Assembly (NCBI GenBank): GCA_904420005.1
Contig: CAJFTT010000042.1
Span: 62,001 to 126,000 of the forward strand
From: Candidatus Tabaqchalia intestinavium
GTDB taxonomy: Bacteria; Bacillota; Clostridia; Oscillospirales; CAJFTT01
DNA length: 64,000 nt
Direction: 5' to 3'
Shown piece by piece: positions 47,814-50,185 of the stretch. The stretch's first letter is position 1. Every line of letters begins with the position of its first letter. The notes under the pieces were generated by a model, which saw only the letters and a list, made by a program, of their open reading frames with translations, was not told the origin of the DNA and ran no database searches. The position numbers were made by a program, and so were the translations under genes.

Positions 47814-49352
47814 TTAAGCCGGCGTCCGCAAGGTCAACCCATCTTCGGAAAGGCAATATTCTTTTTCACAAACCTCCTGCACAAATTTACGGTCATGGGA
47901 CACGCTGATGATCGCACCGTTAAATGCATGCAGAATGGCGCGGATCATCGGATTGGACAATGGAGAAAAGTTCCGCGTCGGCTCGTCAAGTACCAGCACA
48001 TTACAGCCGGACAAAACCATCTGGACAAACAGCAGCTTCGCCTTTTGGCCACCGGACAATTCCGCTGTCGGCCGCTCCATCTCCTCCGGCGTATACTTGA
48101 CACTGCCCAAAATCGTGCGAACGCGCGTCACCTCCTCCGCGCGCCCCGACGGCGCCAAAAATTCCACCGGCGTTTTGGCAAGGCATAATTGCTCCTCGTA
48201 ATCCTGCGGCATATAGGCCGTTTTCAAATCGGAACGCTGTTGCAGCTGCTGCGCAATCTGACGCAGTAATGTTGTTTTCCCCACACCATTTTTTCCGGTG
48301 ATGCAGATTTTTTCCGGACCGATGACTTCCAGCCGTACCGGACCGCAAAGCCGCCGGCCGTATGCTTCCAAGCCATCCAGCGCTAAGGATAGCACCCGCT
48401 TGCCCGGCGGGAGGGGCGGCGTCTCTCCAAATTGCAGAAACATTGCCTCCTCGATATCCGGAAGCTGTACTTGCCGTTCCTGCTCCCGTTCGAACCGTCG
48501 CCCGAGCGCCTGAATGGATTTCATTTTCTTTTTGAGCAGCCGGCCTCCGCCGGGGTCCGCGCGACTGATCACATTCTGTTCATGCTCGACGCGCTGATAA
48601 ATCTGACGATAACGCTCCATGCGGCTCTCCTGCTCCGCCTGTTGCTTGCGCGCGAGCTGTGTCTGCCGCGCAAGTCCTGCTTCCCGCTGCCGGATATATT
48701 CCGCATAGGGCAGTCGCGCTACTGTGCAGCGCGACTGCGTTTTCCGGCGCACACGCTCGAGGTGCAGGACGACGTTGGCCGTCCTCTCCAGCAGCGTCTC
48801 ATCGTGGGAAATATACAGCACCGGTATCGTGCAGGCACACAAAAACGTTTCCAGCCAAGTCAGGGTCGCCCGATCGAGGTCGTTGCTCGGCTCGTCCAGC
48901 AGCAATATGGTGGGTTTGCCCATAAGCAGCCGCGCCAGCTGGATTTTTACCTTTTCGCCGCCGGAGAGCGTACCCATAGCCTGATCGGAGTAAAATAATG
49001 CTGTATCCACGCCGACCTGTCGTGCAATCTCGGCCAACTCCCGCTGAGACAGCGCCAGAAATTCTTCTTCCATACAGCAATATGCATAAACAGACAATTG
49101 CTTTTCCGCCTCTTCCATTTCCTGCGGGAGATAGCCGAATTTCTCCGCATCGCGCTGGACTTCGCCTTCGATAAGTGCGTATTCCTCCACCAGCGCCGGC
49201 GACGCGACCAGCTTGAGCAGCGTGGACTTCCCGTTGCCTTCTTCCCCGATGATCGCCGCGCGGTCACCCGGCTGCAAGGAAAATGTCACGTCCTCCAGCA
49301 GTACGCGTAAATCCTTTTTATGTGTTACTGTCAAATGCCGTATTTGCAGCAT
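47814..49352 (-). CDS. ABC-F family ATPase (possible antibiotic-resistance/ribosome protection type)
   Basis: Two ABC domains (GEEGNGKSTLLKL, LSGGEKVKIQLARLL...LLLDEPSNDLD; GKNGVGKTTLLRQ, LSGGQKAKLLFVQMVLSGCNVLVLDEPTRNFSPLSNP), no TM segments, charged inter-domain linker. Confidence 0.9.
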   Translation of the reverse strand: MLQIRHLTVTHKKDLRVLLEDVTFSLQPGDRAAIIGEEGNGKSTLLKLVASPALVEEYALIEGEVQRDAEKFGYLPQEMEEAEKQLSVYAYCCMEEEFLALSQRELAEIARQVGVDTALFYSDQAMGTLSGGEKVKIQLARLLMGKPTILLLDEPSNDLDRATLTWLETFLCACTIPVLYISHDETLLERTANVVLHLERVRRKTQSRCTVARLPYAEYIRQREAGLARQTQLARKQQAEQESRMERYRQIYQRVEHEQNVISRADPGGGRLLKKKMKSIQALGRRFEREQERQVQLPDIEEAMFLQFGETPPLPPGKRVLSLALDGLEAYGRRLCGPVRLEVIGPEKICITGKNGVGKTTLLRQIAQQLQQRSDLKTAYMPQDYEEQLCLAKTPVEFLAPSGRAEEVTRVRTILGSVKYTPEEMERPTAELSGGQKAKLLFVQMVLSGCNVLVLDEPTRNFSPLSNPMIRAILHAFNGAIISVSHDRKFVQEVCEKEYCLSEDGLTLRTPA

Positions 49353-49367
49353 AGGGCCTCTCTCCTC

Positions 49368-49466
49368 TCAAATAAAAATCAGCATCCGGCAGCCGAATGC
49401 TGATTTGCGCGCTAGAGCGCCCATATACAAAAACAAACGGGCGAAACGCAGCGCAATCCTCATCAT
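49368..49466 (-). CDS. Putative 32-aa leader peptide ORF upstream of the ABC-F gene
   Basis: MMRIALRFARLFLYMGALARKSAFGCRMLIFI*; stop lies 15 nt before the ABC-F ATG; ORF spans the attenuator hairpin. Confidence 0.45.
   Translation of the reverse strand: MMRIALRFARLFLYMGALARKSAFGCRMLIFI
49370..49406 (-). terminator. Attenuator hairpin in ABC-F leader
   Basis: - strand AAATCAGCAT-TCGGCTGCCGG-ATGCTGATTT followed by TTATTT; competing pairing partner at 49464-49473. Confidence 0.75.
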
Positions 49467-49573
49467 CCGGCTGAGGCCTCGCCCGCCTTGTTTCCAAGAC
49501 GTGCAGATCCGTTCAGTCGAAATGAGAATTATTTGCGCATGCTTTCACCCGTTCCTTCTTTATTGTTTTTGCT

Positions 49574-49602
49574 ATAGTAGCATACCATTTCGGCTTTGTC
49601 AA
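49574..49602 (-). promoter_or_regulatory. Sigma-A promoter of the ABC-F gene
   Basis: - strand TTGACA (49602-49597), 17-nt spacer, TACTAT (49579-49574). Confidence 0.75.
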
Positions 49603-50096
49603 GACCTCTGTCCTGCTTTGTCCTCTTCGGGCGCTACCTGCTGCGATGAATGGCGACGAATTCGCGGCATTTCCGGCATCAATTCGTCTGACACAATCCG
49701 CAGCATGGATTCCAGCTGCAGGATTTCTTCTTTTGTAAACCGTTTCTCCACCCGCTGCGTCACAATATGCAGATATTTCTGGCTGATGTTGTAATAATCA
49801 TAATATTTCTGCGTGACCTGTAAATGATATTCCCGTTTATCCGTCTCCGACTGGATCTTACGAATATATCCTTTGCGGATCAAATTATTGACTTTATACG
49901 CCGCGTTGGGCGCAGAAATATTGGTGAAAGAAGCAAATTCATTGATCGTGGGCGTTCCCAGCGCGTCGATGATCTCAACACAAAAGGTCTCGACCGTCGT
50001 CAAGCTGGCTTCCCGTTCCTGAAAACGCCGGAATATGCTTTGATTAAACTGAAGCCGAAATTTTGTATATACCTCGGAAATCACTTGATCCAGCAT
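49599..50096 (-). CDS. MarR-family regulator (FabT-like by position)
   Basis: Start MLDQVISEVYTKFRLQFNQS at 50096; wHTH INEFASFTNISAPNAAYKVNNLIRKGYIRKIQSETDKREYHLQVTQKY; last gene of fab operon. Confidence 0.85.
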   Translation of the reverse strand: MLDQVISEVYTKFRLQFNQSIFRRFQEREASLTTVETFCVEIIDALGTPTINEFASFTNISAPNAAYKVNNLIRKGYIRKIQSETDKREYHLQVTQKYYDYYNISQKYLHIVTQRVEKRFTKEEILQLESMLRIVSDELMPEMPRIRRHSSQQVAPEEDKAGQRS

Positions 50097-50185
50097 GTCG
50101 GCCTCCCTGCGCGTTTTTATGCCTTCGTGGCACGGCATGAGCGTCGCCGTGCTTTTTCTCGCTGTCGAGCTTCAGCAGGGTATCC

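Follow-up and report, generated by a model that had tools for sequence, protein, structure and literature searches.

A probable ribosome-mediated transcription attenuator with an ultrashort upstream ORF ahead of an ABC-F gene in gut Clostridia

In this work, we have used comparative and folding analyses to examine the leader of an ABC-F gene found in a 64,000-nucleotide stretch of DNA from Candidatus Tabaqchalia intestinavium (contig CAJFTT010000042.1), referred to here as the window. We consider it highly likely that this leader is a ribosome-mediated transcription attenuator of the ABC-F gene, with a three-codon upstream ORF (uORF) encoding Met-Arg-Lys (MRK) as its sensor. A preliminary description of the window had already suggested attenuation of this kind, and the comparative and folding evidence strongly supports it; the same description had placed the sensor in a 32-codon ORF of the leader, and we are almost certain that this role belongs to the three-codon MRK ORF, not to the 32-codon one. 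Our results establish the anatomy of the leader, its conservation, its mutually exclusive pairings and the effect that a modelled ribosome has on them. Ribosome stalling by antibiotics probably turns the ABC-F gene on.

Anatomy of the leader and its locus

The regulated gene, which codes for an ABC-F ATPase of 512 aa, lies on the minus strand (47814–49352), as do all the leader elements given below. The promoter previously claimed for it is present at 49602–49574 and is of the sigma-70 type, with TTGACA (49602–49597) separated by a 17-nt spacer from TACTAT (49579–49574), and with TG before the -10 box. Upstream lies the gene of a MarR/FabT-like regulator (49599–50138), which ends inside the -35 box of this promoter, so that box and stop codon overlap. 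This gene stands with others resembling a fab (fatty-acid synthesis) operon, the fab gene names being a reading of the translations. Downstream of the ABC-F gene there is a dihydroorotate-dehydrogenase-like electron-transfer gene with a promoter-like site of its own (47673–47646). From the predicted transcription start near 49567, the leader is about 215 nt long. Its folding energy is -98.1 kcal/mol (z -7.5 with respect to shuffled sequences). No Rfam family reached its gathering score in the leader, and the match seen at lowered thresholds was rejected as a chance match.

The ultrashort uORF and the 32-codon ORF are both located where the preliminary description had them. The uORF, ATGCGCAAATAA (49529–49540), is the proposed drug sensor and is preceded by the Shine-Dalgarno sequence GGGTGA (49545–49550; duplex with the anti-Shine-Dalgarno -9.9 kcal/mol). 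Both are part of the 5' arm of a long hairpin, P1 (49429–49560), which would act as an anti-antiterminator. The same arm contains segment 1 (49514–49528), which begins directly after the uORF stop codon and, absent a stalled ribosome, is predicted to pair with segment 2 (49455–49473) in the 3' arm. Segment 2 has a second possible partner, the 5' arm of an intrinsic terminator that sits between the uORF and the ABC-F start. For this terminator, the hairpin (49376–49406) and the T-rich tail, which runs to about 49370, are as initially described, but the stem, put at 10 bp, has 14 pairs including G-U. It is followed by the Shine-Dalgarno region of the ABC-F gene, AGAGGAGAGAGG (49357–49368).

The antiterminator helix reported before, in which CAGCCGGATG (49473–49464) pairs over 10 positions with CATTCGGCTG (49399–49390), was found again; it is extended by 49462–49460/49403–49401 and 49456–49451/49410–49405, and, with a ribosome set on the MRK ORF, it is part of the minimum-energy fold. 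A further long stem proposed in the preliminary description, 49479–49492 with 49432–49445, did not hold: its probability is 0.0 with or without the ribosome, and 49432–49445 closes the long P1 hairpin over the uORF Shine-Dalgarno.

Conservation of the ultrashort ORF and of the P1 hairpin

A search of named contigs and related genomes gave about 55 usable orthologous ABC-F genes (43–61% identity), from Oscillospiraceae, Lachnospiraceae, Erysipelotrichaceae and others. One plan repeats itself in their leaders: a Shine-Dalgarno sequence precedes an ultrashort ORF, at whose stop codon a first segment starts; an internal hairpin separates this segment from its pairing partner, a second segment, which is often followed by a terminator hairpin. 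A uORF of 3–5 codons with a Shine-Dalgarno sequence is present at a comparable position in 43 of these leaders (30 of three codons, 12 of four and one of five), and the Shine-Dalgarno context GGGTGAAA recurs. When strict criteria were applied (ATG start, 3–4 codons, anti-Shine-Dalgarno duplex of -7 kcal/mol or better, within 300 nt), 31 of the 55 real leaders had such a uORF, whereas dinucleotide shuffles gave 1.25 on average and at most 3. About a dozen orthologs have no recognised uORF of 3–5 codons; three leaders from Bacilli MAGs (L033, L034 and L037, about 43% identity) have in its place a six-codon ORF, MLTREK or MLTRKK followed by a stop, with a very strong Shine-Dalgarno sequence and 62 nt before the ABC-F start.

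The encoded peptide varies widely. MRK is found in 11 of the 43 uORFs, and there are 24 different peptides overall, MLV, MHA, MFA and MNNI among them. The last codon before the stop encodes lysine or arginine in 30 of the 43, and arginine stands at position 2 in 16, counts that take no account of relatedness or of the constraints that P1 pairing places on the codons.

The P1 fold, involving the uORF and the bases that follow it, recurs in 41 of the 43 leaders, and P1 is more stable than in shuffles with z below -2 in 40 of the 43 (mean z -4.2). Over the 13 positions just after the uORF, a mean of 10.6 are paired downstream, compared with 4.2 in shuffles (43 leaders). The pairing is retained despite differing bases: in L045, segment 1 is ACTGTTTCC and pairs with GGAACAGTTTAC, and in L054 it is ACAGTTTCT and pairs with AGGAACTGTTTAC. 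The P1 pairs were chosen in each leader by the folding program, and pair-type counts thus lean towards structure. In a MAFFT alignment of 12 P1 regions the 3' arms were misaligned, and this alignment was therefore rejected as a basis for covariation counts or a covariance model. Where a terminator was recognised, segment 2 almost always overlaps the stretch that pairs best with the 5' arm of that terminator. Many orthologs have such a hairpin ahead of the ABC-F gene, often 20–50 nt from its start. The T-runs that follow P1 were considered as a second terminator and rejected; in many leaders they pair with the uORF Shine-Dalgarno instead. A further feature, seen in L009, L047, L053 and other leaders, is an internal hairpin that separates segments 1 and 2 within P1 and has a U-rich stretch, such as GGGCCTTGTTTTTGTTGCCGG, after it. 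This recurring element may be a polymerase pause site that couples transcription to translation of the uORF.

A modelled ribosome, the proposed switch and its alternatives

The nascent state of the leader was modelled by folding the RNA up to the terminator loop with a ribosome-sized block on the uORF start. In the window, the block on the MRK start raises nascent antiterminator pairing from 0.08 to 0.81 (from 0.14 to 0.88 in the trimmed version used for the multi-leader test). Over 33 leaders, the terminator 5' arm pairs with sequence upstream of it at 0.34 on average without the block and at 0.67 with it (Wilcoxon p = 1.3e-6), with two of the 33 shifted in the wrong direction and several terminators probably misassigned automatically. 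Position matters in the window: footprints moved 18 to 84 nt downstream leave the value at 0.08, and only shifts of 90–108 nt give a partial rise, to 0.28–0.62. For the complete leader at equilibrium, a ribosome on the uORF does not remove the preference for the terminator (0.86). As the terminator wins at equilibrium either way, we infer that the switch would have to be kinetic, with the antiterminator forming before the terminator 3' arm has been made. Such an order of events is usual for attenuators.

We propose that, when no drug is present, ribosomes would quickly complete the MRK ORF and P1 would form, with the uORF region pairing with segment 2; the terminator 5' arm, left free, would then fold into the terminator, and transcription would stop before the ABC-F gene. 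An antibiotic blocking the first peptide bonds would hold the ribosome at the uORF start codon or close to it, and the footprint would cover the Shine-Dalgarno sequence, the uORF and the beginning of segment 1, so that P1 could not form. Segment 2 would then pair with the terminator 5' arm before the 3' arm exists, and RNA polymerase would enter the ABC-F gene, whose product presumably dislodges the drug from the ribosome. The variable uORF peptide fits a sensor of blocked early elongation, and it is for this reason that we take pleuromutilins, lincosamides or streptogramin A to be the most likely inducing drugs.

A different role for the uORF, as a sequence-specific arrest peptide in which lysine or arginine before the stop stalls the ribosome with a particular drug or at termination, is unlikely. 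It would agree with the frequent lysine or arginine before the stop and arginine at position 2, and the sequence of the vmlR uORF has been reported to matter for lincomycin induction (PMC10201436); however, the remaining residues are very variable and the length goes from 3 to 5 codons, and the residue counts carry the limits noted above. A wider version of the idea is also unlikely as a whole: the K/R-stop motif would mark a sequence-specific sensor, for example one in which a drug arrests the ribosome on the final sense codon or the stop codon of the three-residue peptide, the clade would give protection from a drug class other than the known pleuromutilins, lincosamides and streptogramin A, and the MRK leader would be a portable module that different ABC-F families share. 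The 32-codon frame (MMRIALRF...IFI, 49466–49368) does exist, with 15 nt between its end and the ABC-F start, but that it encodes the drug-sensing leader peptide is highly improbable. No similar peptide was found in 42 orthologous leaders, many of which are without any ORF of at least 18 codons, and the Shine-Dalgarno sequence ahead of it is a poor match (-5.9 kcal/mol, compared with -9.9 for the MRK ORF). In addition, a block on its start leaves antiterminator pairing at 0.08, because this start lies inside segment 2, which must stay free for the antiterminator. The 32-codon ORF is a chance frame.

Two other explanations concern the output of the leader. Translational attenuation, in which the ABC-F Shine-Dalgarno is masked, could be the main mode of regulation in place of transcription termination, and both cplR and vmlR combine the two layers; part of the Shine-Dalgarno region is paired at 0.54 in the modelled repressed fold and at 0.38 in the antiterminated one. 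This is nevertheless a small difference in one sequence only, and the hairpin has a T-rich tail and hairpins of this kind recur, which makes a mainly translational mechanism very unlikely. That the structures are chance hairpins, together with an ordinary terminator that serves the fab operon upstream, has a negligible probability: it is true that the leader directly follows the fab genes and that the promoter overlaps their last stop codon, but the architecture is kept in dozens of orthologs, across several Clostridia families and beyond, and the constant neighbour of the conserved leader is the ABC-F gene. Transcription attenuation sensed through the MRK ORF is the reading that we retain.

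The ABC-F protein, its distribution and known attenuators of this type

The window protein has two ABC domains with a long helical linker between them and no membrane domain, as is characteristic of the ABC-F family. Its AlphaFold model has a pLDDT of 90.6, with linker helices at residues 216–261 and 267–292. The three best Foldseek matches are ARE proteins of solved structure, PoxtA, VmlR2 and Sal(B), and VgaA ranks fifth, all at 22–26% identity; the best PDB match by sequence is VmlR2. None of the curated NCBIfam resistance cut-offs searched (Vga, Lsa, Sal, Msr, CplR, OptrA) is reached by this protein: the best specific model, Vga, gives 204.6 bits against a cut-off of 725, and the general model NF000355 gives 292 bits against 380. 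The protein belongs to an uncharacterised clade that lies below the NCBI curated cut-off. By analogy with its neighbours in fold space, and in view of a leader that resembles a drug sensor, the window protein may be a resistance ABC-F that protects the ribosome. In the second ABC domain (residues 454–468), LDEPTRNFSPLS after Walker B replaces the usual LDEPTNHLD, and R460, N461, S463, P464, S466 and P468 show little or no variation across 26 orthologs.

Genes of the clade are scattered, being found in 34 of the 394 genomes sampled from the order. No plasmid copy with more than 60% identity was found among 526 matching records, the matches listed having 24–35%. A search of the 394 genomes of the order with a strict MRK consensus returned five sites, namely the window, three sites before orthologs and one before an Lsa-family ABC-F gene, and a looser leader consensus returned a single site in 300 genomes of the phylum, before an ABC-F ortholog. 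The Lsa-associated leader lies in another genome of the order (G010, L079:1303-1540, minus strand). It has the MRK uORF and its Shine-Dalgarno sequence (GGTGAAAAAATGCGCAAATAA) as in the window, a P1-type hairpin and two terminator-like hairpins, but the gene that follows is of the Lsa type (549 bits, partial gene) and not an ortholog of the window ABC-F.

The window leader adds a new case to a type of switch already known from vmlR, cplR and are5sc. In Bacillus subtilis vmlR, a three-codon uORF, MIN, lies in the 5' hairpin and has to be translated for lincomycin induction, and a naturally occurring MRK variant from other bacilli also induces (PMC9226507). The window leader resembles it in having a three-codon uORF within a 5' anti-antiterminator hairpin, an antiterminator and a terminator just before the ABC-F gene, and in its length, about 215 nt against about 219 in vmlR (PMC9226507). 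They differ in the uORF itself, MIN in one and MRK in the other, and in the protein, which in the window is of another clade (23% identity in the structural match); moreover, the NusG pause motif TTNTTT is not enriched in the leaders of the window clade (14 of 35 leaders, compared with 14.1 in shuffles). The cplR leader of Clostridioides difficile is likewise from the Clostridia, has a three-codon uORF with arginine at position 2 (MRI) that is sequestered by a 5' hairpin, and carries a terminator before the ABC-F gene in a leader of 212 nt; in contrast, its terminator hairpin hides the main Shine-Dalgarno (PMC10201436), and the window protein scores 144 bits with the CplR model, whose cut-off is 780. 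In Streptomyces coelicolor are5sc, with the uORF MLV, lincosamides, streptogramin A and pleuromutilins cause stalling of ribosomes on the start codon, and erythromycin does not (PMC12421871). The three-codon length is shared with the window, and MLV is also encoded by the ortholog L012, but are5sc is actinobacterial, uses a TTG start and precedes the gene of an ARE5 protein (PMC12421871).

What do these leaders mean for the ABC-F family? They extend it by a clade from gut Clostridia whose genes are probably inducible and whose member in the window falls below all the NCBIfam resistance cut-offs. Furthermore, the more than 40 natural uORF variants provide a ready series for the question, raised in previous work, of how the uORF sequence relates to the inducing drug (PMC10201436).
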